Source of the DNA: Nautilus pompilius
Taxonomy: Eukaryota; Mollusca; Cephalopoda; Nautilida; Nautilidae
Assembly (NCBI GenBank): GCA_018389105.1
Contig: JACATO010001123.1
Coordinates: forward strand, 175,001 to 239,000
Direction of reading: 5' to 3'
DNA length: 64,000 nt
Of the stretch, positions 2,321-56,653 are shown piece by piece (position 1 is the stretch's first letter; each line of letters begins with the position of its first letter). The position numbers and the translations under genes are program-made. The notes below the pieces were generated by a model, which had not been told where the DNA came from, did no database searches, and was given only the letters and a program-made list of their open reading frames with translations.

Positions 2321-2810
2321 GGGAGAGATGGAGAGAGAGAGAGAGAGAGAGAGAGGAGATGAGAGAGAGAGAGAGAGAGAGGAGAGGGGAGAGAGAGAGG
2401 AGTGAGAGGAGAGAGAGAGAGAGAGAGAGAGAGATGGGGTCAGTACCGAGAGAGATAGAGAGATGACGTCAGTACAGAGAGAGGAGAGAGAGAGAGAGAG
2501 ATGGGGTCAGTACCGAGAGAGAGAGATGACGTCAGTCAGTACAGAGAGAGAGGAGGAGAGGAGAGAGATATAGCGAGAGAGAGGAGAGGAGAGAGAAGAG
2601 AGAGAGAGAGATGGTGTCAGTAGAGACAGTACCGAGAGAGAGAGATGACGTCAGTACAGAGAGAGAGAGATGGAATCAGTACAGAGAGACAGAGATGACG
2701 TCAGTAGCGAGAGAGAGATGACGTCAGTACAGAGAGAGAGAGATGGGGTCAGTACCGATAGAGAGAGAGATGACGTCAGTACCGATAGAGAGAGAGGAGA
2801 GAGAGAGAGA
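2321..2810 (+). repeat. GA-rich tandem array with embedded TGACGTCA (array A)
   Basis: Runs of GAGAGA are interrupted at irregular spacing by a core reading ATGACGTCAGTAC followed by AGAGAG or CGAGAG. By hand there are six perfect TGACGTCA octamers, and about five decayed cores of the form ATGGGGTCAGTACCG or ATGGAATCAGTAC. Open frames across it (a 60-codon frame from 2670) are products of the repeat and not genes. The octamer is the full palindromic CRE recognised by CREB/ATF proteins. Whether it is bound here is unknown. Confidence 0.9.
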
Positions 2811-4239
2811 CGGCAAAGTCGCGAAGCTCGAGTTAAAAAGTGGAATTTCTAAGAATGCTGCGATTTTTTCCTCCTCTTCTAGAGCCATTTAAAGCTATTA
2901 CCAGACCATTAGTTTACACCGACAAAAAAAAAATTTGATAACGTAATCTAAAAGATAATAACGTTTACAAAGAAAAAAATATTATTTTTTTAGCGAAATC
3001 AGGATAAAAAGCTTTACTAAATAGAATGTTGTTGAAAAGAAAATTAATTTTATTATGCACAAAATAACGACGCAAAAAATAACGTTGAAGAGATAATAGA
3101 GTGAAGGAAGATGAAATTGACAGGAAAAAAGTTAATGACTTAATTCTGTGTTGTCCCCCCCTTTCTGTGATTCACCACTTCGGTAAAAAAGTATTTAGCA
3201 TTTTTTTTACAGGTCTCTATTAATTTTTTAAAATTATTTTTTTTAAGATCAGATTATTTTCCAATGCTACAGTTTTAAAAAGCTACACTGAAATCAACTG
3301 CGAATCTATTGCGTTGCTTCAATTGTTATTGGGCGGTTACGAACATAAGTCCACCTTTTGTTTGTTCAATTTATCTTTTTTTTCTTAAAAAAAAAGCAAC
3401 AAATTAAATTAAATTAAAGTGTTGCTTACTTCCAGCTCTTCAAAAGTGTTCCCTAAGTCTTAATGCACCGCTTAAAGCGACGAGTTCCCTACAAGCACTG
3501 TTGACGGTGGTTTTGTTGGCCATTCTGTTACGTAAGTTAAGGAGCTTTGATGGTTGCTACATATGGAGGCTGTAGTAAGGTCGGTAAAAAGTAGATGGCG
3601 ATGCTGTTTCTTGTTAAAGCGGATATTAAACTTGACTGTCACACGCCCGACACCGTGACGAAGACAGCGCAAGATTTCGAGGCTAATGGACGACCTGAAT
3701 TCCAACTGTCGGGTAACGCTGTCTCTTGTCCGCGAAATCCGAAGAGGGTGGAGAGAGTCGCAAAGAACTCGTAATCTGTTCCCAGAATCTTCTGACTGGC
3801 CGCTTTATAGGCAAAGTGGATCGTGATGTAGATTCAAAGATGTTAATAATTAACATTTAAGAAAATATATTTATTCTCGACGTTCAGGTGTTTATATTTA
3901 AATTTAAAAAACGTGCCCCCCTTATTCCCCTTTATATATATTAATATAGCAGTTTCGTCTTTATAATAAGGAAAGACAGTATAATTATTTAAGAAGTAAA
4001 GTAACATCAAGGACGGTAGGGAAAACGTTTTTAGTATTTTCAATTAAAGATAAAAAAAAAAACATTTACTACCAAGTATACATAGCTATTGAAAATTGTA
4101 ATAAACAGATAAATAAATAAGAAATAAAGGATTCTTCGGTTAAAGAGTTAGAAGCTTTGTCTGGAAACTACTGGCTCAATCGGAGTTGTGGTAGTCAAAT
4201 GCAATTTTGGGCAATTACATCGGTAATTCGACTTTAAAT
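2811..4239. other. AT-rich unique DNA, no gene seen
   Basis: AT-rich DNA with many short A and T runs. A less biased patch at 3440-3830 contains a 77-codon minus-strand frame (3472-3705). I could not match it to any family and it may be a chance frame or an old repeat remnant. Confidence 0.5.
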
Positions 4240-4545
4240 ACCAGTCTGATCAATACAGACCCTGGGCTAGAAGCAGCGGACCATCAACCCGTTAGTCGAT
4301 GCGGAGGATAAGCCGAGCGGATCAGTCCGTTGCATGTGCCCCTTTCCCGCAATCGCTGCTGAACAGTTGAACGCGACTCTCGCGCCAAGTCATGGAATTT
4401 TAATGGTCCACGAGATGACCGAGTCGCTACAGAGGCCAACGGATAATCTGAAGTCTTCACATTTTCTAAATTTCTGGTCGGTCGGATATGATCGCGAAAT
4501 CGTCGTTCACCCGCCATTGACGCCAAACTTAGACGGCCGGGATAC
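4240..4545. promoter_or_regulatory. Candidate conserved non-coding block
   Basis: About 300 bases of balanced composition lie between AT-rich flanks, with CpG dinucleotides, a GGAATTTTAATGG motif near 4394 and a CCATTGACGCC motif near 4514. The frames on both strands (98 codons plus, 80 codons minus) overlap and have no recognisable motif. I read this as possible regulatory DNA. It could also be an unrecognised repeat. Confidence 0.25.
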
Positions 4546-4761
4546 GTTTAATGTATTTCATATGTTGTGTGTGTGTGTGTGTTTTTTAAATATTTCTGCC
4601 TTGATAGTTGACCTTTTTGGGAGTGGTTGATAGGGAATTACTTCTTTAAACCTCGGCCTAATGAAACGAGGTCGCCAGTTTTCTCTTCCACTGAATATAA
4701 TCCCTAATTTGCACCAGGTACTGCTTTTCCCCTCTCTCTCTTTTCTTTTTTTTTTTCCTGT

Positions 4762-4858
4762 GATGCTCGATAAACTGACAAGGGGACGGGGAATCGAACC
4801 CACGCATTCTGACGGTATGAGAAACCAGCGCTTTAACTCTTCGGCTATCCTAAGTCAT
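4762..4858 (-). mobile_element. tRNA-derived SINE head, decayed
   Basis: On the minus strand the segment has an internal RNA polymerase III promoter. An A-box-like stretch, TAGCCGAAGAGTTAAAGCGC, lies at 4829-4848. A perfect B box, GGTTCGATTCC, lies at 4790-4800. The T-stem pairs over only about three bases and no clean acceptor stem can be drawn, so this is not a working tRNA gene. An A-rich stretch follows downstream on the minus strand near 4740, as expected for a retroposed SINE. The layout resembles a leucine- or serine-type tRNA ancestor, but I cannot assign the SINE family. Confidence 0.6.
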
Positions 4859-5760
4859 TACACTGATGCTCAGAATTATTGCATTACCAGAAATAATCAG
4901 AGATAGTTACTTTATTTGAATCACGGGTTTCGAAAACATGGATCGTGAGAACCTGACCGCTTACGAGCTTTTGTTGATTTAAATAAAAACTCCCAATCAG
5001 AAAGATCCTGTCGCAGCCATAGCGCGTGGGTTTTGTCGCTCAATTTTTGAAATTGCGCGTGCACAGCACGATGTTGTACCCAACAACGCGCTCGCGCGCC
5101 ACGTCCCTGACCTTCTGATTCTCGGAAGGGCAGAGGCGAGACATGGACTTCGGAACATCTCCTGGGATTGAAATCCGATTTCCGAGAATTTCGCAGCACC
5201 ACTGGTTAATCTGTTCAGAGTGAGAATTTTAAAGTCGCGTCTCTTCATCAGTACTGGCCGTCATTTCCAAAAAGAGTTCCGCGAATTTTCCCTGAACCTC
5301 TTCATCCTTCGTCTACGTATCTGTGTTGCAGAATTTGGTTTTCTTCGCTTACTGCTCAACTTTAGAGACCGGCGGAGATTCCAGTAATGGGGCCGCTGGC
5401 AGAGAGTCATCAATTGTTGTTCCGATGTTCGTTTATTCGCTAGTAGAGCAGCGATACGGTACTCACTTAAGTAACCAATACCCTACGTTTACCGAAATAA
5501 TATAAAACACGAGTTCCACGCAAAAACACTATTTTTAAAATTTGTTTTAGGATGGAGGAGATTCTACTTGGACAAGAATCTCCGAGAGAGGTTGAGGTAG
5601 CAAGAGAAATTTGTCATCTCCGGTTTAATTGCAATGAAACTACGAATAATTCGTTAAGTACTTTTCTTTCTGTTTTATGGTTTGTAAATTTCTTAAACAT
5701 TCGTTACCTGGGAGAAGCAGCATCCCGTTTGCATTCCTTTTGTACTAAAGTGCGAGGATA
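4859..5760. other. Mixed-composition DNA, no gene recognised
   Basis: The part from about 4920 to 5300 is CpG-containing and balanced. It carries two overlapping minus-strand frames of 93 and 83 codons in different phases with no recognisable domain. The rest is AT-rich and leads into the 68-bp minisatellite. Nothing here is supported as a gene. Confidence 0.4.
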
Positions 5761-6644
5761 GAGACGACAGTGAGAACTGTACAACAGACATTGGAGTCGG
5801 TCGGGTGTCCATGAACCTGACTTTGTGAGAGACAACAGTGAGAACTGGACAGCAGACATTGAATTCGGTCGGGTGTCGATGAACCTGACTTTGTGAGAGA
5901 CGACAGTGAGAACTGGACAGCAGACATTGGAGTCGGTCGGGTGTCCATGAAGTTGACTTTGTGAGAGACGACAGTGAGAACTGGACAGCAGACATTGGAG
6001 TCGGTCGGGTGTCCAAGAACTTGACTCTGTGAGAGACGACAGTGAGAACTGGACAGCAGACATTGGAGTCGGTCGGGTGTCCAAGAACTTGACTCTGTGA
6101 GAGACGACAGTGAGAACTGGACAGCAGACATTGGAGTCGGTCGGGTGTCCAAGAACTTGACTCTGTGAGAGACGACAGTGAGAACTGGACAGCAGACATT
6201 GGAGTCGGTCGGGTGTCCATGAAGTTGACTTTGTGAGAGACGACAGTGAGAACTGGACAGCAGACATTGGAGTCGGTCGGGTGTCCAAGAACTTGACTCT
6301 GTGAGAGACGACAGTGAGAACTGGACAGCAGACATTGGAGTCGGTCGGGTGTCCATGAAGTTGACTTTGTGAGAGACGACAGTGAGAACTGGACAGCAGA
6401 TATTGGAGTCGGTCGGGTGTCCATGAAGTTGACTTTGTGAGAGACGACAGTGAGAACTGGACAGCAGATATTGGAGTCGGTCGGGTGTCCAAGAACTTGA
6501 CTCTGTGAGAGACGACAGTGAGAACTGGACAGCAGACATTGGAGTCGGTCGGGTGTCCAAGAACTTGACTCTGTGAGAGACGACAGTGAGAACTGGACAG
6601 CAGACATTGGAGTCGGTCGGGTGTCCATGAACCTGACTTTGTTT
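5761..6644. repeat. 68-bp minisatellite, 13 tandem copies
   Basis: Thirteen head-to-tail units begin at 5761 and every 68 bases after that (5829, 5897, and so on to 6577). Units differ mainly at one short segment. Three variants occur: C (CCATGAACCTGACTTTG), A (CCATGAAGTTGACTTTG) and B (CCAAGAACTTGACTCTG). Their order is C C A B B B A B A A B B C. The unit has no stop codon in any minus-strand phase, and 68 is not a multiple of three. Three long overlapping minus-strand frames (326, 271 and 262 codons) therefore run through it and are almost certainly artefacts. Confidence 0.95.
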
Positions 6645-8762
6645 AGCTCGTTTTCCACGGTCACGGCGGCCATCGTGTTCTTGTTTTTTACAGTAATGCG
6701 AGCGTGATTTCCTGTTTTTAAAAGTAAATCTTTGTTTTCTAAATATTTTTAACTAACATAATTTGTTACATTTTAAAGCCTTGGTAGTTTGCGAGTCTAT
6801 TTATTAAAAATATTTAAAAAATGATCAACATCTTAAAAATAAAGAGAAACCTTTCTGTCGAAGTAACGGCTGCTGTCGCTTCCAAAGCCTCCAGTGAGGT
6901 TCTCCGTACGAGGCGTCAATGCCTGCGATGTCGACGTCTACTACGTATTAAAGTTCCGATTCTGCCACTTGGGAGAATAGGGTGGACGTACCCCGTTGAG
7001 GGTTACCCTGGAAGTACGTTAATTAGAGCGATGCACAAGAACAGCGCCTCTCCTCTCTCCCCCAACACTCTGAGTGCGGAAGCATTAACCGGCACTGACA
7101 AATCCACGGGTTGGCCACGGACCCGATATTGACACGGTTGGCGTGAAAAAAGAACAAAGCCCTCCCGACTCGAGCAGCTTTCTTTCTGCCGAATAAAATG
7201 AGTGGGAAATACGTCGCCCTGCCATTACAGCTCTATCAGCCGTTCCTGTTTAACAATTAGCGTGACCTTCACGTGTAAAATACGTTATGGCGCCCATTAG
7301 AACACAATCAGCAGACTAGATTTGTTTTAAAATCAGTGATTTCAGTTTTCCAGATGTGAACAAGTGAAAATCCTTGTATTCAGCGAGTTAAAGATGCGAA
7401 AGCTATAACCACAATTTTGTTTTTTTATATTTTAAATTTTTTTTTTTTTTTAATTTTTAAATGTTCAGCAAAACCTAAAGCAAACAAAACGACAAAGTCG
7501 CTTTAAAAAATATTTTATACCAATACAAGAACAATGATAACTGTTTTGTTTTACTAAGAAATATGCCGTACTGAAATATTTTGGGTTTTCGAACATTTCC
7601 AAAAAACAAAGAAGAAAAAATCAACTGAAAATTATCCTCCCTGGGAAAATTGTGTGACGTACATCGAGGCGCAATGGAGGCACGTGGGCTGTTACCTTAA
7701 CGGTAAATAAATAGAGAAAAAAAGCATATACAACAAAAACAAAGCTTGATACGTACCACTACGCAAACTAAAATCTCCATTAGAACATATACTGGTGTAA
7801 ACTCGAAGTCATTCGTACCTAACTATCACGTTTAGAAATATTCATCATCCTTAACATTTGTTTTTAAATTGCTCTTTATGATAATTTCATTCAAAGTGGT
7901 CCGTTGTCTAGTAGTTTGACTACTAAATTGCCCGTGTACGAATTCCAGCAGACACGGACTCAGTTTGGAATGGCGCTCTTGGAACCCCAGCAGGAACGGA
8001 CTCAAGTTTGGTATACCTCTTTTGGCTTTGTTTCTTCTCCTCCTAATTCGCTAGCTAGTCCGGTGGGTTTTCTCTCACGTCTGAAGATAAAATGCGTCGG
8101 CAAAGTATTTTTCCTGCAGTGGTACGTCTTGAGTGCTGGTTACTGGTCCACAGCCGTAAGGCTGTTTTACTCTCTTCATCATAAAAATCTCGCTACTCTT
8201 CCAGAACAATAACAGTAGTAATAATAGCCACAAGCGCAGCGAAAGTTATGGGATCGCGAAGGAGCAGTTCACGTGACCGCTGAGGCGGTGGAGATTTAGT
8301 GAGTACTCGTTGTCACGTAAAACAGTTCTTGTGAACCACGGCGTGAGAAACATCAGTGGAAGAAAGTTCTCCGTGAAAGCTTGAAAAGACGCGGTGGAAT
8401 AGGAAAGAATCATTGACGCCATAGAGCACCACCATGAAACTGCTACGCAGTGCACAGAAAAAAAAAAACTTAGGCAAAATTGTCTTGTTGATGTCACTCG
8501 ATTAAAACCTTCAGAGAATTCTTTCTTTTTTAAATACGTTTTTATAAACCAAACAATATTTCTTCCTTCATATTGCTTTCTATGCCTTCATCGGTACTCT
8601 AAGTTTTACTAAACTATATAAATTCTTGCGATAAGGTCGACTGGTTTTGGGAAACGTCTCCTATAAAAAAAAATTTCAAATGGATGAAAGTTCCTTCACT
8701 GATTCATGCTTAATCTTCACCTTTTGGGGCAAAACGGCTGTGCACAACTCTTCAGCATGAAC
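6645..8762. other. Unique DNA with a balanced-composition block, no gene
   Basis: From about 6860 to 7330 the DNA is balanced, with a 103-codon plus frame (6821-7132) that matches nothing I know. Motifs such as CCATTACAG, ACAATTAGCG and CCATTAGAAC around 7220-7300 look like enhancer DNA. From 7400 it is AT-rich. Near 7941 and 7983 a stretch of about 30 bases is repeated at a 42-base offset with several differences, a small diverged duplication. Confidence 0.4.
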
Positions 8763-8965
8763 TATAGGGAAGACAGGGGCTAGTTGTTACAGTATCGGTA
8801 ATCCTAATTAAACGTGTAGAGAAGCTATAATCGATATCATATGTTCTGAACTGCTATCCAAAGGTCAAAGCATACGATGTTGATTATAGCTCATTTATAC
8901 GATAGATTAGGAATTACTGGTAGTGTAACTTACCCCTGTAACAACTAGCTCCGGTCTCCCCTAGA
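8763..8965. mobile_element. Foldback/MITE-like element with long inverted repeats
   Basis: The left arm (about 8763-8838) and the reverse complement of the right arm (about 8880-8965) align along most of their length. Both carry GCTAGTTGTTACAG, then a diverged part with GTAAT and CCTAAT, and then AGCTATAATC near the centre. The outer ends read TAGGGAAGACAGG on the left and TAGGGGAGACCGG on the inverted right. The loop is about 40 bases and there is no coding capacity. Ends starting with TA suggest a TA target site, as for mariner-type or other TA-specific elements. The family is not identified. Confidence 0.75.
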
Positions 8966-11099
8966 TTAGCGCTAGAAAACTAAATGAACGTTCACCATAT
9001 CATCGGTTATTGCATTCTTTAGTAAACCTGTAAAAGTAACAAGTAATCAGTGTACCTTCCAGTTACGTAGATAAAATCCACCCGCACGCACAGTAAACCG
9101 GGGGCGACGATGCTGTTATGTAAAATCGTGTCAACTAAATAGGGATCTTCTGCAAGAATGTCTAATCTAGATCAAACGTTGAAAAGTAGGAAGGCGTAAC
9201 TTTTCAAATAAAAGTAGATAGATTATGACTTGGCTTAAAACTGCATCCGATCGTCTTAATCACAATTAAGTGCCTCGAGCATCACGATTCAAGATGTATT
9301 CTAGAAAGACTCTATTAAGATAATCTCTCTCTATGCCGAACTACATTAAGGATAAAACCGAGTCGCTCGCTTTTCAGTCAAGATGGAATAAGTGCACACT
9401 CCACGAGAACCAGGAAGTAAGGCAAAGCAAAGTCAGCTTTAGTTTTGTTTTCATTTTATTTTTCATCCACAAATGTTTTATTAATTTGGTTATTGTTCGA
9501 TCAGATCTTAAGCCCCCACCCACCCTTTTTAGTGTTAACTTAATCATTGAATTAGACGTTGGGCTTATGCAGGCGTTTTTTTTTTAAAAAAAAATATAGC
9601 GAAGCCATTACGATTTCAATCTCTTGTGACGTCACATCTGCCATTTTCTTATGTTAATTTCGGATAATTTCATTTCTGGGTAATAGCATAAAGAGTTTAC
9701 GGATAAAGACTTTCTTGTCATGTCCATTTTAGCTGCTTTCTCGATGCCCTTCGGTAATGAATAGCGAGAACGACAACAAAACTTGCACTTATTCTTATAG
9801 AACGTTAAAAAAGACGACGACACGTTCAAATCGAAATGACGGGTGAGTACAACGGGTTTACTCTACCGCCTGTGGTCCGGGGGGGTAGAAAAAACAGAAT
9901 TGTTCGTCGAATGGAAAAAGCAGGCAAGACGGTGTTATTTCTACAGTGCAGCCAGCAAGACGTATAATTACAAAACCGACAGGTGATAATTAAGATCTGG
10001 CGACACGACAAAACGGAGGAACGGAAAATAAGACAGACAGACAGACAGATATCAGATGATCAGGGAAGACGGAATCAAGGGTTTCCGATGGAATCTCTTC
10101 TTTTTTGCTTTCTTAACACAACTTTTGCTATTGTAAAATTAAGTTTAAAAAAATAATAAACTTACGAATTTAACGTAATTAATTTAAAATTTGAAATATT
10201 GGCGAAAACGATTTAAACTTCGTTAATTGCTTTAAAGTTACCATTTAAGGCATATTCCCTTTTAGTTTTAGATTTCCAACGAACATTGGAATATACTGCA
10301 TAAAATTAACGTCTTTATTCAGTTTTTGTTTGTCACATCCTAAGGCAATAATTTCTGGGGGCGAGATTCCACCGGATAATTGTACTCCAAGGGTTAATTC
10401 TGCGAGCTGCCGCAGGAAAGTACTGTTGGAGAAAAGAGAATAGAATGGAAATCAAATCGCTGTAAAAAAAAAAAGTGTGTGTGTGTTGGGGGGGAGATTA
10501 TCCTTAGGAGATATGATCTGTTACTCGGAATTGGTCTCCGCCACAGATTGTTTTCTCGTCTGTTCGGATTAACGTGGAAAGAAGTGCAGACTGTTTATGA
10601 AGAAAAGTAAAATCGATGATGAAGATGTTTCAAAACTTGTTCCGATAACTTTCACAAATAACAACAACAATAATAATAATCTGTTGATTCGTTATAACAC
10701 CACGATTTGTAAGCTTTTTAATTGGCGTTTTCTGTCATAGAGAGCGATTTCAAAAATTAGAAAAAAATCTGTTTTTAATTTGCGCCCCAAAGCCGCCGAT
10801 ACGAACAGGAATACAGTTTCACTCTGGTAAGATTTCTAGAAAATGCGGTGCTCTACTTTTTTCTTTTTTTTTAAATCGGGTAAACTGTCATTATCATTTA
10901 ATATTTGTCTGGCTTTTTCTTTTCCATTATTAGCCGGAACTGGGGTATAGAGATTTAAGTTTAAGCTACAAATATTTACACTGACTGAACGATTTAACGC
11001 GACATTTTCCTAATTCTTAAACGTGAATAACTCGGGAGGTGGGGGCTTATTTTCTTGACTCCTGACGGTTTGTCCCCCCCCACCCGTTTAGAGACTTTA
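8966..11099. other. Mostly AT-rich unique DNA, no gene seen
   Basis: The only features are a lone perfect TGACGTCA at 9627-9634, a short AGAC tetranucleotide run at about 10031-10049, a short GT run near 10477 and scattered homopolymer tracts. Open frames are short and not convincing. Confidence 0.55.
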
Positions 11100-12321: not shown

Positions 12322-12322
12322 A

Positions 12323-12761: not shown

Positions 12762-12794
12762 CTCTCTCTCTCTCTCTCTTCATCTCTCCCTTCA

Positions 12795-12826
<32 letters not shown>

Positions 12827-13067
12827 CTCTCTCTCCCTTCATCTCTCCCCCTCTCTCTCTCTCTTCATCTCCCCCCTCTCTCTCTCTCCCTTCATCTCTC
12901 CACATCTCTCTCTCCCCATCTCTCTCTCTCTCTTCATCTCTCCCTTCATCTCTCCCCCTCTCTCTCTCTCTCTCTCCCTTCATCTCTCCCCATCTCTCTC
13001 TCTCTTTTTTCATCTCTCCCTTCATCTCTCCCCGTCTCTCTCTCTCTCATCTCTCCCCATCTCTCTC

Positions 13068-13100
<33 letters not shown>

Positions 13101-13101
13101 C
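12762..13101. repeat. CT-rich microsatellite with CATCTCTCCC interruptions
   Basis: Runs of CTCTCT alternate with short interruptions of the type TTCATCTCTCCC. The phrase CATCTCTCTC also follows TGACGT in the CRE arrays, so this could be a degraded or core-less relative of them. That link is an inference. Long Ser/Leu/Pro frames across it, up to 221 codons including flank, are repeat artefacts. Confidence 0.9.
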
Positions 13102-18852: not shown

Positions 18853-18921
<69 letters not shown>

Positions 18922-20765: not shown

Positions 20766-20795
20766 CTGGAATCAGAGAGAGAGAGAGAGAGAGAA

Positions 20796-23201: not shown

Positions 23202-23537
23202 TTCTCTCTCTCTATGGATTGACGTCATCTCACTCTGTGGATTGACGTCATCTCTCTCTCTCTACTGACGTCATCTCTCTCTGTGGATTGACGTCATCTC
23301 TCTCTATGGATTGACGTCATCTCTCTCTCTGTGGATTGACGTCATCTCTCTCTCTGTATTGACGTCATCTCTCTCTCTCTACTGACGTCATCTCTGTGGA
23401 TTGACGTCATCTCTCTCTCTATGGATTGACGTCATCTCTCTCTCTGTGGATTGACGTCATCTCTCTCTCTCTATGGATTGACGTCATCTCTCTCTCTCTC
23501 TACTGACGTCATTTCTCTCTGTGGATTGACGTCATAT

Positions 23538-23571
<34 letters not shown>
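23202..23571 (-). repeat. CT-rich tandem array with embedded TGACGTCA (array B)
   Basis: By hand, 14 perfect TGACGTCA octamers lie in about 330 bases, each usually followed by TCTCTCTC and preceded by GTGGAT, ATGGAT or CTAC. It is the most regular and least decayed array in the window. Read on the minus strand it has the same polarity as array A: GA run, TGACGTCA, short spacer, AGAGA. Confidence 0.95.
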
Positions 23572-24140
<569 letters not shown>

Positions 24141-26644: not shown

Positions 26645-27028
26645 TCTCTCTCTCTCTCTCTATGTACTGACATCATCTCTCTCTCACTCTCTCTCTCTCT
26701 CTGTACTGACGTCATCTCCCTGTCTCTCTGTACTGACGTCATCTCCCTCTCTCTCTGTACTGACGTCATCTCTCTCTCTCTATGTCCTGACATCATCTCT
26801 GTCTCTCTGTACTGACGTCATCTCCCTCTCTCTCTGTACTGACGTCATCTCTCTCTCTCTATGTACTGACATCATCTCTCTCTATGTACTGACGTCATCT
26901 CTCTCTATGTACTGACATCATCTCTGTCTTTCTGTACTGACGTCATCTCCCTCTCTCTCTGTACTGACGTCATCTCTCTCTCTATGTACTGACATCATCT
27001 CTGTCTCTCTGTACTGACATCATCTCTC

Positions 27029-27090
<62 letters not shown>

Positions 27091-27160
27091 ACGTCCCCTC
27101 TCTGTACTGACACCACCTTTCTATATACTGACCATCATCTCTCCATCTCTCTGTCTGTCC
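26645..27160 (-). repeat. CT-rich tandem array with TGACGTCA and TGACATCA (array C)
   Basis: By hand there are eight TGACGTCA and six TGACATCA cores. The intact core is usually preceded by CTGTAC. The mutated core is almost always preceded by TATGTAC, so two linked subunit types alternate. A pure CT run of about 60 bases follows from 27030. Plus-strand Ser/Leu frames and minus-strand Arg/Glu frames here are repeat artefacts. Confidence 0.95.
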
Positions 27161-31499: not shown

Positions 31500-31878
31500 T
31501 CGCTAGATAGAGCTCGAGAGCTCTCTCTCGTTCTCAGCAGCTCTCTCTCTTTCTCATCTCACAAAATATCTTCACAGCTCGGCTCTCTCTGGAGCTCTCG
31601 CTCTCGAGGTTTCTAGAGCTCATCTAGCTCTCTCTCTCTCAATCTGATCGCGAGCGCTAGCAAAAGAGTCTCTCTCTCTCATCTCTCTCTGGCGAATAGC
31701 CTCTCAGCTCGTTTCTCATCTCTCTCTCTGTTTCTCATATCTCTCATCTCGATCTCTCTCGCTCTCATCTCTCTCGCTCTCAACAGCTCTCATCGCTCTC
31801 GATCTAGTCTCTCGTCTCTCTCTCTCGAGCTCTCGCTCGATCTCTCTCCTCGCTCTCTCTCCATCTCTCTCGCTCTCC

Positions 31879-31977
<99 letters not shown>

Positions 31978-31984
31978 TCCATCT
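31500..31984. repeat. Degraded CT-rich array
   Basis: From 31500 to about 31870 CTCTCT runs are heavily interrupted by GAGCTC, CGCTCTC and CATCTC. From 31875 to 31975 the run is nearly pure CT. No TGACGTCA is present, but the CTCATCTCTCTC phrase recalls the CRE arrays. Minus-strand Arg/Glu frames are artefacts. Confidence 0.9.
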
Positions 31985-34595
31985 CTGTATTTTAATTCTT
32001 TCGGTCGCTATCAAAGCGATTCGCTTAAATCTGTATCGCGAAACTGGTGCACTGCAGAATCCAGTATTAATTGTAGCTAAGACCAAACTCTATAAACCGT
32101 ATAATTAAAGAGGCAATAACATCGAATTATTAACTCGTAACAGAAACAAAAACAAACAAAAAGGACTAACAACACGATAATACCGTCAAAAGAAATTATG
32201 GCGAGATTCTTCAAAGCAATTGTGCATGTGTAAGAAATACGCGTCACTGGGTTGAGACCGACGAATCGATTTATCAAAATGTGTCTGTCAGCCGGGAAAT
32301 TTTTTCTGGACAAATGATAATTAAAGATAACAACAAAAGAAATGTTGACCATCCTAACCATTTTTTAATGTTCTGGCATTTCTTTAAATGTGGGGAAAGC
32401 TAGCGCTTGTTACGGACCAATGCACGGCTACTCGATTACGTTTCGTCGAAGAATTAATGAGGATTCTTAGGTAAATCTGACAAATTAATAAAATATCTCC
32501 CCTGTTTTTCCTAACTGAGGAAGGAAGAGTTAGTGGATTATCGCCTATTCTTGGTTCAACATCTCGACGCTGGCATTACAACCTGTGTAAATGTTTCTTT
32601 CCGTTGTTGTTCGTTACAGGTACTCAGCGGTGGGGGGGGGGAGATAGCCGGTTGGAGAGGGTTAAACACAGAAAATTTTAAAAAAAAAAACGGGTATTTT
32701 GAGGTAACTGCTAGTCAACGCCGTGTGTTCTGTCGTCACTCGCCCACAGATAACGGCTGTCATGAGGACCCCAGGAAGAGATTTTTAAATGAGGTGGGTC
32801 CTCATTAACGACAAAATTGAAAAGAGCTATCTAAATGTGAACTTTTCACAGCATTTACTTTCATACTTAAATGTCACGCATATACTAAGTAAGGATGCTT
32901 TCTCCTGGCACGGTCGCAAATCACGGGAGAAATTTCTCTAGGATGAATATTAATGGTATTTTTTTTAAAAAATGTGGGCATGGAATTGGATGTTCGATGG
33001 AAATCTCATCTTATCTTCTGAACGCTCGCGAAAAAGCATCAGCTGCTTTAAGCTTCCGCAACCGCAACAAATCGAGGGGAAAGATTAAATAACGTTAAAT
33101 TCTTAATTCCAAATGACATTTACTTTAATCGGTACCCTGAAGAACAGAAACAGGCGATCTCTTCGAGGATGAGAAAAGTTCGTATTTACAAAACATCCAA
33201 TGAGATTCTGCACTTTAAGGGGGGGATTCTGTGCCCTGGAGTGGTCACTCTGAACAGGTGCAGGCAGATTAAATTAAGTCAAACTGTAAAATAATTTCCA
33301 GGTCCGCACGTGAACCAGGTTATTCACTGCTTTCTGCTGAGTTGAGTGTCCGCAAACTTCGAATAAAAGCTGCCCCTTATTCAACGAATCAAAGGGGGCC
33401 TCAGTATTCCATCAGCAGTCGGAGTCGAACGAAGAACAACGTACACCGATAGAAGTGAAGTGATCACGTGAATGAAAATTAATTATACATTCAATTATTA
33501 TAATACATTGATATTAAGAGACAGTTTAAATTTTAGAAAATTTTAAAAAGAATTTTAAAAAATTAAAAAAAAAAAAAATTCCACCGCTTAGTCTCGTCAT
33601 TTTAAGTTGTAGCAAAGACTCGGATCTGCCGATCTGGAAACTTTAACTCTTCAACTGTCGCTGAATAGCTGCGCTCAACTCTCATAGGCTGAGTAAGTCG
33701 TCGTGATATGCCACTCAAAAGCATGATGCTGCCACATAGTAGGCTAGGGAATCTCCTCGCGTCCCTTATAATCAGAATGGCATTTCTCAAGGGTCCACTG
33801 GTTTCTTTCAGACCACAATAACTGCCATCAAGCAGAAGCACGGGTGATCATTTAAAATACGCTAAGAGTGAGGGATCTTCCAAAGCGCCGCAGATGACGA
33901 GTAATCTAGCTGTTCGATAATCCCCTAATCTCTATAGTTTTGTTTCATAATCGCTGTTACGGCACAAACTAGACGTAGTGTGTATTTCCCTTTGACGCTG
34001 TGGAAGTTGTTTGGCTACATACTCTCGTATATCGCCGCAATAAGTTCATAGTTTCCGCCCAACTAACAGAGAAGAAAATTAAATAAAAGTTTTATCCATC
34101 AAATAAAGTAAATGAAATTCAAAGCGATGCTACCCATGATCTCAATCCTAGAATCATAGATAACTACAATTTTTTTTTTTTTGAAAAAAAAAGAAGAAGA
34201 CATCTGCAACCTTCAGAAGAGTAAAAAGATATTGGTGTCAATATGGGATCTACAAAGGATTAGCTGAGTATCAGATAATCCATGTCGTTTGTGGTGTAGT
34301 GTTTTTTCAAAATTAAATTACTTACACACTATGCCGGATTGTCCTAGCGCGCTCACTCGTCATGAAGCTGCAAAGGCAAGACTTTAGTTGGTATCCGGTT
34401 TTGGCTGCACACCAAAATGGAGATTTAGGGTGGGGGTCGGCTCTTTTACTGCGGTTTCTTCCGGGTAGTCCGATTTCTTAGATTAGTAGTAGGTTCTTGA
34501 AAAAAAAACACCTTTACCTTTGAGGTCTATTCAGTGAATACAAAAGAATAAAGTTTTAAAAAGTGGTGCAAAAGCCATACTATGGTAATCGTGAC
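31985..34595. other. Unique DNA, no gene recognised
   Basis: Mixed and AT-rich sequence. Frames of up to 94 codons (minus, 32077-32361) and 91 codons (plus, 32533-32808) have no known motif. A B-box-like GTTCGACTCC on the minus strand near 33422 is too isolated to call a SINE. Confidence 0.45.
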
Positions 34596-34981
34596 GGAAT
34601 TTAAAACGTGACGTCATGCATGGTTAGCGCCTTTCAGACGGAATTTAAAACGTGACGTCATGCATGGTTAGCGCCTTTCAGACGGAATTTAAAACGTGAT
34701 GTCATGCATGGTTAGCGCCTTTCAGACGGAATTTAAAACGTGACGTCATGCATGGTTAGCGCCTTTCAGACGGAATTTAAAACGTGACGTCATGCATGGT
34801 TAGCGCCTTTCAGACGGAATTTAAAACGTGACGTCATGCATGGTTAGCGCCTTTCAGACGGAATTTAAAACGTGACGTCATGCATGGTTAGCGCCTTTCA
34901 GACGAAACGTGACGTCATGCATGGTTAGCGCCTTTCAGACGGAATTTAAAACGTGACGTCATGCATGGTTAGCGCCTTTCA
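34596..34981 (+). repeat. 44-bp minisatellite, nine copies, each with a CRE
   Basis: Seven full 44-base units begin at 34596 and every 44 bases to 34860. A 37-base unit follows at 34904 and a 41-base terminal unit at 34941. Each unit contains ACGTGACGTCATGCATGG, in which the CRE palindrome TGACGTCA overlaps an ATGCAT palindrome. Eight copies have the perfect octamer and the third has TGATGTCA. The units are otherwise nearly identical, which suggests recent expansion. Confidence 0.95.
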
Positions 34982-38126: not shown

Positions 38127-38180
<54 letters not shown>

Positions 38181-38561
38181 GTACTGACGTCATCTCTCTC
38201 TGTCTCTCTCTTCTGTATCTCACAATCTCTCTGTACTGACGTCATTTCTCTCTCTCTCTCTGTCTGTCTCTCTGTACTGACGTCATTTCTCTCTCTCTCT
38301 GTCTGTCCTCCTGTACTGACGTCATCTCTCTCTCTCTCTCTCTGTATCTCACAATCTCTCTGTACTGACGTCATCTCTTCTCTCTCTCTTCTGTATCTCA
38401 CAATCTCTCTGTACTGACGTCATCTCTCTCTCTCTCTTCTGTATCTCACAATCTCTCTGTACTGACGTCATTTCTCTCTCTCTCTTCTGTATCTCACAAT
38501 CTCTCTGTACTGACGTCATTTCGTTTCGCTCTGTGACTGACGTCATCTCTCTCTCTCTCTC

Positions 38562-38625
<64 letters not shown>

Positions 38626-41706: not shown

Positions 41707-41947
<241 letters not shown>

Positions 41948-43390: not shown

Positions 43391-44062
43391 GCGAGAGAGA
43401 GAGAGATGTGACGTCATACACAAAGAGAGATGGCGTCACCACAGAGAGAGATGACGTCAATACACAGAGAGAGATGGCGTCAATACACAGAAAGAGATGG
43501 CGTCACCACAGATATATGACGTCAATACACAGAGAGAGATGGCGTCACCAAAGAGAGAGATGGCGTCAATACACAGAAAGAGATGGCGTCACCACAGAGA
43601 GAGATGGCGTCACCACAGAGATATGACGTCAATACATAGAGAGAGATGGCGTCACCACAGAGATATGACGTCAATACATAGAGAGAGATGGCGTCACTAC
43701 AGAGAGATATGACGTCATACACAAAGAGAGATGATGTCACTACAGAGAGAGATGTGATGTCATACACAAAGAGGGATGGCGTCAATACACAGAGAGATGA
43801 TGTAACCACAAAGAGAGATATGACGTCAATACACAAAGGGAGATGATGTCACTACAGAGAGAGATGTGACGTCAATACACAAAGAGAGATGATGCCACCA
43901 CAGAGAGAGATGTGAAGTCACCACAGAGAGAGATGTGAAGTCATACACAAAGAGAGATGATGTCACTACAGAGAGAGATGTGAAGTCATACACATTGAGA
44001 AATGGCGACACCACAGAGAGATATATGACATCAATACACGGAGAGAGAGGGAGAGAGAGAGT
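43391..44062 (+). repeat. GA-rich tandem array with TGACGTCA, TGGCGTCA and TGATGTCA (array E)
   Basis: By hand there are eight perfect TGACGTCA octamers in the left two thirds, alternating with TGGCGTCACCACAGAG and similar units. The right third contains mostly TGATGTCA and TGAAGTCA, so decay increases to the right. Spacer words are CAATACACA, CACCACAGA and CATACACAA. Confidence 0.95.
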
Positions 44063-46900: not shown

Positions 46901-46913
46901 CCCCCCCCCCCCC
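46901..46913. repeat. C13 homopolymer run
   Basis: Thirteen consecutive C bases, unusual in such AT-rich surroundings and prone to sequencing error. Confidence 0.9.
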
Positions 46914-48779: not shown

Positions 48780-49100
48780 ATGGAAAAGTTGATATACCTC
48801 CAAATTGGCCGATTCCGTGTGAACGGGCAGGCAGTGCGCCGAGCTGGCCAGGCAAGTACGAAACTATACCGTTCCTTCTGCTGTCGAGGTTTTTATACCA
48901 TGGTCGTCTATTATTGCTAATTGCAAATAAAACCCAAGCTAATTCTCTGCTAAATCTTGTTAGCTGACAATGCCGGCTGAAGGAACGCGGTCTCCAGGAT
49001 TTCCATTCTCTGTTTTATTGCTTTTGCATCAGCCCCAGCGGATGGCGCCCGGTTGTAATGGAGTTCAGAGCGTAACGAGAAGTCGCGAGAGTGGGGCGTG
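48780..49100. promoter_or_regulatory. Candidate conserved non-coding block
   Basis: A mixed-composition block with TTGCTAATTGCAAATAAAAC near 48914, which combines a homeodomain site and an octamer-like ATGCAAAT-type site on one strand. TGTTAGCTGACA near 48958 and GGTTGTAATGG near 49052 follow. It is one of the best regulatory candidates in the window by texture alone. Confidence 0.3.
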
Positions 49101-51998
49101 GTTTTGGAACTACGAAAAGTCGACTTCATAAAAAGAAAATGCAATACATTTCTACAGATAAAAAAGCAATATATTTTGGTCTGTTTTTAATTAAAATGTT
49201 ACTGCCACATTTCTAAATACTCCAAACGACATAACTTTTTATTTTTCTGCTTTGAAATTTGCATATCTTTAAATATTACGGTATTGCAAAACTTGCTTTA
49301 TTTGCATAAATTAATTTAGCGTGGGTTTTTATTCAAGAAGATCAAGTAGGTTTTTAATAGGGATACCGTCTCTGTCTTCAGTTTTACTGTCTCGAAACTG
49401 TACTTACATACAGAGACGTCACAGCGATAATTAGACACTCGGAATTAAAAGAAGATGTTCATTCCGAAACCATACATAGCGCTGGTTAAGTAACGGTAGA
49501 ATTAATACTTCGTGATACGGTTCTTTGTCTTGTGTAAGAGACCCATGCGCTGATGCACAGAGTAGGGAAGCGGTTTTCTGGAACGCTTTCTCGAAGATCG
49601 GTCGAGAATAACTGCTGACATAGGCTCAATGAAGTTTTATCCAGCGATTAGCCAGGCCATGTTATAGTTGCATTGCTCTGACTCATTTTCCACTACTACG
49701 GAACCATCTTCTATAAGAATGCTAGTCTCCATCAGTTCCGTGACCCATGGCTGTCTGCAGGTTAAGACTTCGTTCACACACATATGAAAAGTGTAATCTA
49801 TGTGTTGCTTGCTTATTTTCCGGAAGAGTTTGTAAAAATACTAGTTCGCCTGAAATTCTGAAGAGTCAGCGAATAAACATATAGCCTTCTGTAGTAGGAT
49901 CGGTTGTCTTCTCTGATGATACTAGAATTTAACGAAATCAGAAGAGTAGTGTAGTTAGTGTGAAATTAACTACAACAACAACAAATTTCTCTCTAAGTGC
50001 ATTTATGATATTTTCCGAAGGAAAATTAAAATGTTTGTTGTGTCACTCAAAGAAATAACCGGTTTCGTTGTAGTTAATTGGCTAACAAGTCAAGGCGGAT
50101 ATCGTGTACTTAGGCTGGAATTTCATGCCATGTCATCAATTACGCTAATTTCTGTCTCTCGGTTCAAAACACACATAAAACTCAATTAGTATCCCAAAAC
50201 CTCTGCTTCAAAGGCTATCGTATTAAAAAGTTATTCTGTGTTGTTGTTGTTTTTTTTAAATATAATTCTCAGTATTTAAAGCGACGTGACGGCATTTCGC
50301 AGCCATTGAGTTAGAATTTAGAAATCGGTCTGTCCCTTTATAAATTTGTCTGGAGCATCGTTCCTGACTTAATAAACTCTCTGTTATAAAGGATGTTTAA
50401 ATTCGAGTAATGACCAACTTTAATATAATGCACACAACGTAAAAACCGCGGATTATGTGGACGTTCGCACAGGCATTAGGATGTAGTTTAGTAGCAGAAT
50501 GCAATATCGTATCTGAAATTTTAAAACGATTATAAATGACTTAAAGAAATTAAGATAAATGCGTGAAATTTGGGATTCGTGGTACTTACATTCCAGCCAG
50601 TTTATAGAGAACTGCTCGGAAGAACTTGCAGTGATGCCAATGTAAGGTTACAGCAGCATCAATGAAAAACCATTAAGCTTCAAAGAAAACATCTTTGAGC
50701 ATTCTTTTTCATTTTCCCAATAGTTATTGTTCCTATAGTTTTGAGTTCATAAAGACTCGTCTTGTTAGTTCTTTGTGGGCTAGTAAAACGGTAATGATTT
50801 TTTTTAAAAAAAAAAAACTACCGATGATACAAGAAGGAAAAACAAGTTTCAGCTCAAATCTAAAGGCGTTTATTGATTTCTGAAGCCGCAGGGGTTGATG
50901 CATTGTAGAGCTTCACTAAAGAATGAATTAATATCGAAACTGAGCTAATCTAACAGATAAGACGGCAACACAGTAATAGATTCTACGAATGTAAGTCTTA
51001 CGTTATTCCTTCGACATACCCAGCTTCGTGTTTTTGTTTGGCTATTAAAGTTTGAAGTGTCCACACTCGTAAAATGTACACGCGTATTCTTAATATCAGC
51101 GTTCGGCGATACATAGTAATCAAAACAATGAAAGATGTGGGAGATCTTCAGATTTTTGTATGGCTTTTAAAATAGGAAAATAAAAAGAGTTTAAAAATAA
51201 TTACGTATTTCATTACCTGCGTTGGAATTGGGGTATTAAGCATTGTAACTAATTTAAAAATCTAAACCAGTCGATGATCGATCACAACCAGTTTATTTCC
51301 ACTTTATATATATAATGAAAAAACTTGTTTGATAACAGTGTGTATAAACAGAACAGATGTGGTCTTTAGACCAGTTTTCGGGTAAGGAAACTGAAAGACA
51401 ATGAAAAATATTTCAGTTGTCTTGAGCATAAGATTCCTACATTTTTGTGTTAAAACATCAGCTTCTTATTTCTGCTTTTGTCCTCATTTTATTCAGAATT
51501 GCTGTTATCGTTTTATTTTATTTATTTTTTTGTCTATAAAATATTGGGTCTCTTCTTGCAGTCGATCGGTGCTGATTATAATATCCATAGTGAAACACTT
51601 GGTTACAAAATGTTTTTTTTTCCAATCTGTGAACAATCTGATAAATCTGAACAAAATTATTGTTGACCATGCTATGCATGCATCCATGTAGACATATGTT
51701 TATGTCTGTGCGCTCAACAAATTGGTATTTTTGTATGAGACCTCTTGTACTACCATTTACAATCTTCCCTGCTGTTGTAGAAGGTGTCTATCATCTGTAA
51801 CTATTTGTTATTCCAATGCTTGAGTCATTTGACACTCTACTGCTTTAAGTACTGCACGTATTTCTTTGTGTCTGGGTCAGGTGTACTCACTAAGCTCACA
51901 CACTGTCGAGTGATACCAAATCTGTATACGAATGGTCGAATCGGGTATAAAACCCGCCAAAAAATGTTCTCATAATGAAATGAATGTACATTGAAAGT
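49101..51998. other. AT-rich unique DNA, no gene seen
   Basis: Nearly 3 kb of AT-rich DNA. The longest frame, 96 codons at 51401-51691, is Phe/Ile/Ser-rich and looks like chance. No repeat unit was seen. Confidence 0.5.
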
Positions 51999-52963
51999 AT
52001 GGCGCTTGGACGACGATCTACAGACGAACAGTGATATCTAGCCATAGCTAGATTATAGATCGGAAGTAGACAAACAGATGTGGTTACTGAACTATGTGTA
52101 GCGCCAGAGAAATATCAGCTGACTTTGCAGAGGTACAAGGAAACCGGTTCAGTTTACAAAAGACCTGGTAGGAGGCGCCACAGCAGCCATGACCGTCGCG
52201 TTAACCGCCACATCACGTGTCTGGGTTGACGAAGCCGCACTGTCTAAGCAGATTCAATCCCGAGCGAATTCAAGCAAGTCCGTCGGACTCTGTCTACAAA
52301 CAAACGGTACGAAATCGACTACACACAACTAATCTACATGCTAAACAGCAAGGCGAAATCGTACTGTCTTAGCCCCCATTTCTGATGGTATTTTGGAAGA
52401 TTAAAGATGGGTTCTCCTCTCTGATTTTACTGATGGTAGTTTACATTTCTGGGAAAAGCAAACCAACTAAATGGTAATTGCAGGGTGTTTGAAAGACCGT
52501 TTCTGAATTGACGGTGTTCTACTTTAGCGTATGTAATGCGATTTTAAAATTGAAAGTGATTTTCGATAAAACTGTTACAGGTTAGCACTACATGGATACG
52601 GCCATTAACTCTGTCTTTATGTCGTTTGTAAGCAGTCACGTAATTAGCTAAATTTAATGGATGAATAAGCAAAAGAACTATAATACAAGAATCATCGTAA
52701 ACCACCTTCAAGAGGAAAATGTCTAATGTTGTTACGGGCTTGATCGTTTCCGACCTAACCTCTCTGTAACATACCTGCAGTAAACTATCAAGCTCCAATG
52801 GAAGCACCGATGGCCTTTGGACTGTTCCGGAACCGCATCAAGCCTTGAATGGAATGTACTGCCACACGACTGCTCCAGAACACCAGTGGAACGGTATCAG
52901 ATGCAGGTGCAGTGCTGTAATGAAAGACAGAAACGCTCATTCACGCTACTAAAGATCACATGA
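51999..52963 (+). pseudogene. Dead Tc1-like transposase gene
   Basis: The reading starts at an ATG with MALGRRSTDEQ, breaks at a TGA, and continues through the helix-turn-helix region to YKETGSVYKRPGRRRH, the hinge motif (TGSV..RP..GRPR) of Tc1 transposases. Farther on DFTDGSLHFW corresponds to the first catalytic D region. From about 52847 EWNVLPHDCSRTPVERYQMQ matches the C-terminal EWN.IPQ...R.L..SM-type ending, and the frame stops at a TGA at 52961-52963. Length (about 965 bases) fits a full Tc1 gene of about 340 codons. Stops and frameshifts throughout make it non-functional. I could not see clear terminal inverted repeats. Confidence 0.85.
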
Positions 52964-55057
52964 CTTTTTGGTGCGTGGCAGGGTCTATTCGTTGTCATTA
53001 TGATGTCACTAAATGCATTGAGCAATGTTCAGATATTGTGCAAAATGAACTCAATATATGTCAAAGTTTTTGGTCACTTTTCAATTGTGTGAAAATATTA
53101 TCTGCCCATGAAATCAAAATGTATCTATATTATTTTATCTGTTTATCCGATTTACTTTCGCCTGAAACCGTTTATATTAAAATAAGAAGTATATATTTGA
53201 ATGGCGTTCGCTGTTGTGAGTGTTATTCCGTATTTTAATTTTTCATTTGCATTCTATCATTAAATTCCTGCAAATTCTTGATGTATTGATGTCTTTTTAC
53301 TGCTGTATTACACTCGATGACAACCTATCTTCTGTGCACGACCACTTTCAGAGTCATTTATGCAGAATTTGAGCTCATATACAAATATCAATATATATAT
53401 TTACCAATGTGTGATTGCGGGCCCTTTTAACCCTTTGCTTCGTAAATTACCAAACTAATATAGTTACATAATACTCTTTACCGTCCGCAAAATTTCCACA
53501 TTAAAAAAGCGGTGATCGATGAAATATGGTACTAACCATCCAATATAATGGAAAATGTACATATAGGAAATAAGGAGAGCAAGTGAAATTTTTTTATCTA
53601 TTATTGAAAACAATTATTGAGAAGGAAGGCACCTGACCTGAGTTTGGTTTTATTTGAAACCTAGGTTACATCTTATTTAGAGCACCTGGTTCAGGCTTAA
53701 CGTATCTATCTTACTGGCGATTTAGACAGTCTGGTGAGGCTACAAAGACGATATTATCATTATAATTTGGTGATAAAAAGATCTTCGCTATTCTGAGCGA
53801 TTAACTAAAATGAACGTTTCTAGTCTTGCGTATCAAAGATTGAGTTTGGAGAATCCAGTTGAGACATTTATGTGAAGAATTAGTAGACAACTCCTTTTTT
53901 ATTATTATTTTTAGGTGTTAGGTGAAGTCGTTCACATCCTGAGGGTTTATTTGTCATAGCAGGCTGGACCTTCGTAAATCATTTATTTCTATAATAAAAG
54001 AGTATGTACACGATGTACACGTAACAGTCTGTCCGTGGAAGTTCTTCAATGTAATGCAGTCACGTGTAGAGTCATATGGGAAAGATGATTTAAAGAAACG
54101 GAAGCTTTATATATATAAGCTGAAAGTCTTCCTGCTTTCTTGTGAATAGCATCTTTTATAACTGAACCAAGATTATTAGACAATTAATATAGGGAGCTAG
54201 TTTTTAAATTCAGAACTTCAGAAAGTGAAAGTTCTCAAATGCGGTTCCGGGGATAACCCATAATAAGAACAAGAAAAGCAAAGGAAAGAAGCATAATAAA
54301 AGGTACAATTAGTAATAACAGCAACAAAAACTTGGAGTAACATGGGGGACGACATAAATTAGGAGTAATTTGAACACAATAGTATCAAGAACAAGCGCAA
54401 AAACTAATGTATCATAATGTATATCCAAAGCCATTTTCTTGTGAGGGCCTTAATAAGATCGTTTCTAGGAGCCCACTTGGCTTGGAAAGCTTCTCATAGA
54501 ATGATTTTGGATTGCTCGGTACTAACCGACAGCGTGGGCCTTTCCTGGTTATTCTGGACTCATTCTTGTCGCTGGTGAACAGAAAATCTGGTATGGATTT
54601 TCCTTTTCTTATTGAAGACGGAAATGCTAAAACCTTGGCTCAGAAAAGGCAACGTTTTGTTACCGTTAACCAGCGTCATGAGACAAGTAAAGAGAGTTGT
54701 AAATAGGAAGAAGATGCGTGGAATGCGTTTCTACAGTCTTGTGAGTCCATGCACATTTTATCGAAATAATTATACGATTTTTTTTTTAAAAAGACAATTA
54801 GATTAAAGAAACAAATAGAAAAGTTATGACGGTTAATATTTTAGATTTTTAAAAAGCACCTGTCATAAAGCTGGCTCTAGAAAAGTAACCAATTATAAAT
54901 TTAAAATAAAAAAAACTATTCGCTTATCAAGAAAATCCGATAACTTTATTTAGATAAATGCTCCTGAATTGTAAGAAATAACTTAGTTTAGCGGTTCAGA
55001 TCTAATCAGTCGTCGATAATTACAACATTTCCTTTCAAAGTCAAAGCCGGGCGTACT
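52964..55057. other. AT-rich unique DNA, no gene seen
   Basis: The part next to the transposase fossil (to about 53250) may be the element's 3' flank and carries a 92-codon frame that starts inside it. Otherwise nothing is recognised. Confidence 0.45.
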
Positions 55058-55086
55058 TTCTTCTTCTTCTTCTTCTTCTTCTTCTT
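55058..55086. repeat. TTC trinucleotide repeat
   Basis: About nine TTC units followed by a T run. Confidence 0.9.
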
Positions 55087-56332
55087 TTTTTTTTAGCTGC
55101 TCGACATGGACGGATGGAGTGTCCGCCGTATTCGGTTAACACCGACTAATTTTATTTGATTGGCTGATTGATTGGTTGGTTAGCTAGGAAAATCGAGTCA
55201 CGGCCGGCTCAGAATTCGGGCGTCTCCCGACGCAGCTCGAGAGCTTCTCGCAGACGCCAAGGGCTCAGCCAGGGTTGGCCAGACGGTTCATTTCTGATGA
55301 GCTGTTTAAAATGTCGAGTCCTGATGCAGAGATATAGGAGAGTAAGACGGCATTGATAAGTATATTGCGATGTACGCGGCGTCTGCTGAAACGAGTACAA
55401 AAGAATAAAATTCCACCGAGACATTCGATTTTCTGCCAGAGTGTATCGCCAAGTGGAACTGTAGTGGTATCATAAGCTACAAGCCGAGTTCCTTGAACCG
55501 CTCTGAGTTTTTTTTGTTTGTTTTTTTTTTTCTTTGGCCTTTTTCTTTCAGGGAGCGCATCTTCGAAGGTTTGGTTTTCCATTTAAGCAGGAAGTTTGCA
55601 GTACATTTGATGTAAGAAGCAGCGCGATGTTCCTTCATTTTCTGTCCATTTATTTTCTGTCCATTAAAGTCATCGTCGCTAAAGTTTCTCTGTCGCGATT
55701 TAAAAAAAAAAAATTTACACTTACTCACCCTTTTTGATTTATCAAAAGAAAATGCTATTTTATTGTTCTTCCTCGACTTTTTTCTTGTTACATTTCTTCT
55801 TTTCCTTCTTGTTCTTAATTTATGCGAATCCAATTTGAATAACGCCAAAATATTGGACCGATCTGGCCAGCACCTGGGCCTTCACATCTCTGGATCTGTT
55901 TATTAAAGAGCTACTAGAAACCTTCCTCAAATCATATGACGTCATTTATAGCTCATTTATGCCTTTAACTTAGAATTGTGGCCGCTGAAACAAGCAGCTC
56001 CGCTCTCTTATACTAATCTCTTTCGCACATTTTTCCATTGAACATTTTGACATAATCACTTTTTCTTTTGAAAATTTTTGGCTAATCTACCAGAACGGAA
56101 GCGCATCGAAAAGAGTTTTCATTCGTTGCATATACAAAAAGAAAGCAAAAAATGATGGGAGGTTTGCGCATGGTTTCCATGGTATTTGACCAAAAAAATG
56201 TTTATTTATTTCATCACTACCTTTTCCGCCTGTTGTGTTATCTGCTTATGTTATGTTGCAAGTTCAGCGTAACCAATAGATACCCAGACGCGCAAAAAAA
56301 AGAATTTAAATTTGCATACAATTCTATTTAAA
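55087..56332. other. Unique DNA, no gene seen
   Basis: A GC-balanced patch at 55120-55330, then AT-rich DNA. A 123-codon minus frame (55477-55848) is Lys-rich because it lies in T-rich DNA. A lone perfect TGACGTCA sits at 55937-55944. Confidence 0.45.
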
Positions 56333-56653
56333 TCTCTCTGTCTCTCTGTCTCCCTCTGTACTGATGTCATATCTCTCTCTGTACTGATGTCATATCTCTC
56401 TCTCTGTACTGACGTCATCTCTCTCTCTCTCCCTCTCTCTCTATACTGATGTCATCTCTGTCTCTCTCTCTGTCTCCCTCTGTACTGATGTCATATCTCT
56501 CTCTCTCTGTACTGACGTCATCTCTCTCTCTCTCTGTCTCCCTCTGTACTGACGTCATATTTCTCTCTGTACTGACGTCATCTCTCTCTCTGTCTCCCTC
56601 TGTACTGACATCATCTCTGTACTGACGTCATCTCTCTCTCTCTCTCTCTCTCT
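56333..56653 (-). repeat. CT-rich tandem array with TGACGTCA and TGATGTCA (array F)
   Basis: By hand there are five TGACGTCA, four TGATGTCA and one TGACATCA cores. Most are preceded by CTGTAC or CTGTA and often by the spacer CTGTCTCCCTCTGTACTGA. The TGATGTCA cores are usually followed by ATATCTC, so again a mutated core is linked to a flanking change. Confidence 0.95.

Follow-up and report, generated by a model that had tools for sequence, protein, structure and literature searches.

A dispersed CT minisatellite carrying the cAMP response element palindrome, and lone bZIP-like copies of the same octamer, in the genome of Nautilus pompilius

Why should a single transcription-factor site recur dozens of times in the tandem repeats of one short piece of genome? 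The question is raised by a 64,000-nucleotide stretch of Nautilus pompilius DNA (contig JACATO010001123.1, positions 175,001 - 239,000, forward strand), referred to here as the window, in which the octamer TGACGTCA, the full palindromic cAMP response element (CRE), occurs 60 times. The best explanation, to which we assign a probability of about 0.62, has two layers: one is a dispersed minisatellite with the CRE in its unit, the other a bZIP-like site that is abundant and turns up in independent arrays. The mechanism considered most likely is that the minisatellite, called here the CT family, would amplify as repeat DNA with the CRE riding along, and that the lone CREs would be real bZIP sites.

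Fifty-eight of the 60 exact octamers lie inside seven arrays, all of which were detected by Tandem Repeats Finder, and two are single copies. These are the numbers given by the first-pass annotation of this DNA, which had counted about 58 copies in arrays plus two lone ones. Its chance level of about one octamer per 64 kb was equally sound: dinucleotide-preserving shuffles of the window contain 0.95 copies on average and 7 at most, and none of 100 shuffles reaches 60. TGACGTCA is the most frequent 8-base palindrome of the window, where its density is 7.3 times the genome mean. The arrays and lone sites, in window coordinates, are as follows.

2323..2799, minus strand (the CT strand is the minus strand): CT/GA minisatellite array with 6 intact TGACGTCA, at 2464-2778.
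9627..9634, no strand: lone CRE, GTGACGTCAC.
23203..23572, plus strand: CT minisatellite array of the GTGGATTGACGTCAT variant with 14 intact octamers, at 23220-23534, spaced mostly by 23 or 25 bp.
26645..27103, plus strand: CT minisatellite array in which GTACTGACGTCAT units are mixed with TGACATCA units; 8 intact octamers, at 26707-26972.
34593..34981, plus strand: 44-bp tandem array, unrelated to the CT family, of 9 copies; 8 intact octamers, in the context GTGACGTCATG, at 34609-34961.
38130..38625, plus strand: CT minisatellite array with a 48-bp higher-order unit; 9 intact octamers, at 38185-38545.
43400..44048, minus strand (the CT strand is the minus strand): CT/GA minisatellite array with a 44-bp dimer of TGACGTCA and TGGCGTCA forms; 8 intact octamers, at 43409-43874.
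55937..55944, no strand: lone CRE, ATGACGTCAT.
56333..56656, plus strand: CT minisatellite array in which several units are TGATGTCA; 5 intact octamers, at 56410-56630.

The seven arrays had been described as unrelated to each other. This is correct for the array at 34.6 kb, which has a different, 44-bp unit, but not for the other six, which are members of a single family, (CT)n-GTACTGACGTCAT-(CT)n. Because these six have one common unit, they count as one case. Read on the CT strand, the unit consists of a CT run, GTAC (or GGAT, GTAT), TGACGTCA, usually a T, and again a CT run; variants with GTGGAT... and GTGTAT... are also found. Two of the six arrays, at 2.3 and 43.4 kb, are in the opposite orientation. 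The octamers in the arrays are mostly about 17-50 bp apart. CT arrays of comparable size at 12762-13100 and 31500-31990 of the window lack TGACGTCA altogether and are useful natural controls for the CRE-bearing ones.

The family extends far beyond the window. In the 727.6-Mb assembly (2558 contigs) TGACGTCA occurs 93,914 times, or 0.129 per kb, compared to 19,528 times for the reversed word and about 9,300 expected from base composition. Pairs of octamers separated by 6-36 bp number 35,143, versus 88 for the reversed word. The 3' flank of the CT family, YNTCTC, follows the octamer 22,972 times on one strand and 22,120 times on the opposite strand (about 45,092 in all), compared to 42 and 31 times in the control, so that the two orientations are near-equal. 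At most 48% of the octamers in the genome carry this flank, an octamer that has it on both sides being counted twice. In 238 kb of DNA (the window together with sampled stretches), the exact octamer is present in 16 of 62 CT/GA loci, and the motif or a variant of it in 19 of the 28 loci that span at least 60 bp. The CT arrays thus consist of head-to-tail copies of one unit at many loci of one genome, as a dispersed minisatellite does. Viral contigs were searched with a word of the CT family and another from the 44-bp unit, and gave no match.

Dispersed short-array satellites are already known in invertebrates, for example in the Pacific oyster, and PMC10048060 describes them, as pattern b, in terms that apply here as well: scattered short head-to-tail arrays whose loci have diverged. 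The CT family differs from the satellites in that text because the array tested here has no visible carrier, the arrays lie within CT/GA microsatellites, and the unit is built around a full CRE. The literature listings searched contained no description of this repeat, and no paper was found that contains any of four unit strings.

In oyster, according to the same text, the short arrays are dominantly located inside Helitrons. The Nautilus arrays could likewise be internal repeats of a transposable element that spreads them; short dispersed arrays are known to spread in this way. The 23.2-kb array was compared with the whole genome together with flanks of about 500 and 415 bp, giving 100 matches from the 40 of 1250 candidates that were scored. 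All 99 non-self matches, in both orientations and with 72-98% identity, fall inside positions 503-885 of the query, that is, 23202-23584 of the window. The confinement of the matches to the array means that no carrier element is seen for it, which contradicts carriage by an element for this one array. Furthermore, the arrays of the window have no flanks in common, and the 16 arrays of the 238-kb sample that hold two or more octamers have nothing in the adjoining 150 bp that recurs in the sample. With no element sequence shared on the flanks in the window, in the sample or, for one array, across the genome, transposon carriage was rejected as a candidate, and we regard it as highly improbable.

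We infer that the units of the CT family are copied between CT/GA microsatellites without any carrier element, by gene conversion, by break-induced copying or by reinsertion of excised circles, and that local slippage and unequal exchange follow. In this process the octamer would be a passenger.

The octamer was examined in 180 family units, collected by allowing 4 or fewer mismatches to a 16-base model that itself favours the octamer and GTAC. An intact TGACGTCA is present in 85 of the 180 and no exact site in the other 95, which leaves special protection of the octamer unsupported. Among the remaining forms, the most frequent are TGACATCA (29 units), TGACGCCA (10) and TGATGTCA (9). The guanine of the CpG is the least conserved position of the octamer (0.74), and the cytosine of the CpG is at 0.89; C has changed to T in 20 units and G to A in 36. 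No strong evidence of selection on the exact octamer is seen inside the CT family, and the proposal of the first-pass annotation that the octamer is itself selected is, within this family, not borne out. The exact palindrome alongside TGATGTCA and TGACATCA forms is also a feature of the genomic CRE sets in the accessible text of a survey from worm to human (PMC1796609), where a bias towards promoters is reported in vertebrates only and not in sea squirt, fly or worm.

The same 180 units bear on another explanation, in which selection would retain the arrays because they titrate or recruit CREB/ATF factors, as sinks for bZIP proteins or as clustered enhancers. The arrays do offer dense full CREs at the short spacing given above, very many of them genome-wide, and the octamer positions outside the CpG are slightly better kept (0.87-0.99) than the adjoining GTAC (0.79-0.94), although the search model favours both. 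However, the CpG guanine is the position most often lost, the exact site is missing in more than half of the units, and the base to the left of the octamer is C in 143 of 180, whereas the form in excess genome-wide has a purine there. The arrays also sit on DNA that is not common to them. Such a selected function appears quite unlikely. Factor-binding tandem repeats do exist, in the form of GGAA microsatellites bound by ETS fusions. Like these, the CT family is a simple repeat offering many copies of one transcription-factor site. In the CT family, however, the candidate site is a bZIP palindrome that includes a CpG and forms part of a longer unit.

The second layer of the explanation concerns the octamers outside the CT family. 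When tandem repeats and CT/GA surroundings were removed from the window and 18 sampled stretches, 212,032 bases remained. This masked sample contains 22 copies of TGACGTCA, compared to 1.9 and 3.7 expected from order-2 and order-3 Markov models (Poisson p below 1e-10); without the window, 20 copies are found in 156,680 bases. Under the order-3 model no complex octamer is more enriched than TGACGTCA; under the order-2 model, in which low-complexity words were still included, several simple-repeat words outrank it. The E-box words TCACGTGT and CACGTGAC rank just below it, so that factor-site words in general stand out. The half-sites are somewhat high in the masked DNA (TGACG 323 versus 235-308 expected, TGACGT 115 versus 64-95), the full sites contributing to these counts. 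CpG words in general were considered as a source of the excess and rejected: the near variants TGACGCAA, TGACGTGG, TGACGTAA and TTACGTAA are close to expectation.

CREB/ATF-group bZIP factors prefer a purine (R) at position -1 and a pyrimidine (Y) at +1. The lone sites, all exact palindromes, have a purine on the 5' side in 34 of 44 half-flanks (p = 0.0002). Genome-wide, RTGACGTCAY occurs 24,126 times (reversed control 4,561) and YTGACGTCAR 3,466 times (reversed control 4,902). The R...Y flanks are found in the lone class and in the 44-bp array, and not in the CT family, which mostly has C at -1. Most simply, the lone copies of this abundant word, with their bZIP-type flanks, would be a large set of real bZIP sites, some of which may have been caught in local duplications. 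The first-pass annotation had proposed that its idea of enrichment at the level of the octamer would fail if the excess vanished on removal of one satellite family. The excess persists in the masked sample, and the flank preference across the genome points in the same direction.

Thus there is little room for the view that nothing acts at the level of the octamer: that one CT unit spread, that the 44-bp array contains the octamer by coincidence, and that the lone copies derive from chance, an old interspersed repeat or decayed arrays. It draws on the reduction of six of the seven arrays to one family and on a modest clustering of near-matches within 200 bp of lone sites (9 versus 3.8 expected). 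Chance alone is already contradicted by the enrichment, which is flank-specific genome-wide and remains after masking. None of the 22 lone sites belongs to a repeat with another copy in the 238-kb sample, a comparison in which low-copy repeats would be missed. Decayed arrays were rejected as the sole source because the exact word, with its 22 copies, exceeds each of its twelve one-change neighbours (4-14 copies). Overall, we give this view a rather small chance.

Two pairs of sites suggest possible composite sites. A lone site at L012:562, in one of the sampled stretches, and the 44-bp unit (window 34609-34981) have TGACGTCATGCAT in common, and the sites at L014:9594 and L015:417 both have ATGACGTCATAATTC.

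As the first-pass annotation had noticed, the unit of the 44-bp array is distinct from that of the CT arrays and yet contains the same octamer: there are 9.0 copies with 95% matches, holding 8 intact octamers and one TGATGTCA. A 1001-bp query comprising the array and its flanks matches only itself in the genome. The array is therefore at a single locus and probably arose by local tandem duplication of single-copy DNA that would already have held the CRE. The occurrence of the octamer in unrelated repeat types extends further, to a 42-bp non-CT unit (C1:1046291-1046720, with 11 GTGACGTCAC), an 85-bp unit and a 36-bp array. Fifteen complex arrays were found in the sample, and 12 non-CT arrays remain after three were set aside by eye as pieces of the CT family. 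The exact octamer is present in three of the 12: the 44-bp array of the window, the 85-bp unit of the sampled stretch L021 (2 copies) and the 36-bp array of L019 (1 copy). The 85-bp unit is a low-copy dispersed repeat rather than a single-locus one, with 46 matches including itself among the 40 of 155 candidates that were scored. The 36-bp repeat, at L019 6678-7496, contains ATGACGTCGAT; a related unit at C326:215997-216078 starts with TCACGTGACGTCGAT instead.

Could the CRE itself drive tandem amplification? A germline ATF/CREB-type factor at TGACGTCA, and perhaps a bHLH factor at TCACGTGA, might open chromatin and attract breaks, the repair of which would create and enlarge arrays; one CT-borne version would then have spread as a self-promoting hotspot repeat. 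The model for such a process is the ade6-M26/CRE meiotic hotspot, known from yeasts. In the accessible text on fission yeast (PMC9775316), ATGACGT together with Atf1-Pcr1 opens chromatin and forms a hotspot. In that on budding yeast (PMC3534124), three tandem M26 copies raise recombination about 4-fold over a matched control. The GA strand of the CT-family unit reads ATGACGTCA and thus contains the ATGACGT heptamer, and CRE arrays with unrelated units do exist. Furthermore, in ten short-period non-CT arrays, in which 467 words are present at least twice, the only octamers common to two arrays are ATGACGTC, GACGTCAC and TGACGTCA.

The arrays in the sample are few, however, and a looser count, of any copy in the 12 arrays, yields 64 octamers in at least two arrays, with ATGACATC in three like TGACGTCA. 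The E-box palindrome TCACGTGA likewise recurs in independent arrays with several unrelated units, although more weakly than the CRE (254 close pairs genome-wide versus 14 for the reversed word), which means that the tie to tandem arrays is not unique to the CRE. Examples of its arrays are located at C84:1174703-1175004, C95:2898432-2898656, C294:2555-3226 and C309:683486-683661. The octamer is intact in fewer than half of the CT-family units, and one of the three non-CT units with the octamer comes from a dispersed repeat. The yeast sources, as far as their text was available, also report that a CRE in ade6 is no hotspot (PMC9775316), so that a CRE site alone is insufficient, and that single motifs have little effect in a budding-yeast open reading frame (PMC3534124). 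Amplification driven by the CRE is in our opinion unlikely. The palindrome as such was a further candidate. It was rejected because the reversed palindromes ACTGCAGT and AGTGCACT yield just 88 and 14 close pairs, and being a palindrome is not enough to make arrays.

Several points weigh against the preferred explanation, in which the CT family carries the CRE as a passenger and the lone CREs are bZIP sites. The presence of the octamer in three of 12 non-CT arrays hints, with tiny numbers, at a tie between the CRE and tandem duplication that this explanation does not contain. The genome-wide flank comparison covers a single CT array, for which 40 of the 1250 candidates were scored. Octamers are denser in the sample than in the genome as a whole, with 0.45 per kb in its first 144 kb and 5 copies in the next 30 kb, compared to the 0.129 per kb given above. 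The count of 24,126 for RTGACGTCAY includes copies in arrays and therefore overstates the excess of lone sites: 4,059 pairs of this form lie close together, and of the 50 places listed, 38 were assigned by eye to the CT family, the other 12 belonging to 3 loci outside it. Finally, the excess of near-matches beside lone sites implies that some of these sites may be array remnants.

Other features of the window can be described briefly. A 68-bp tandem array of 13 copies with 96% matches occupies 5760-6642 and contains no CRE. The minus strand at 4770-4860 resembles, by eye, the head of a tRNA-derived short interspersed nuclear element (GGTTCGATTCCCCG), and ARAGORN calls no tRNA there. No non-coding RNA or tRNA was detected in the window at the thresholds of the tools. 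Comparison of eight open reading frames with protein domains gave a single match, under the curated cut-off. Outside the window, two reading frames of the sampled stretches resemble, by eye, a heparan sulfate sulfotransferase and ECSIT, which points to an animal.

The significance of the repeat depends on which role the CRE has. If it only hitchhikes, then tens of thousands of perfect CREs in tandem repeats would constitute a natural experiment on bZIP factors facing many possible decoys. If instead the CRE does promote its own amplification, transcription-factor binding would be linked to the birth of minisatellites in an animal, a connection for which the direct evidence, in the sources as far as available, has so far come from yeasts.

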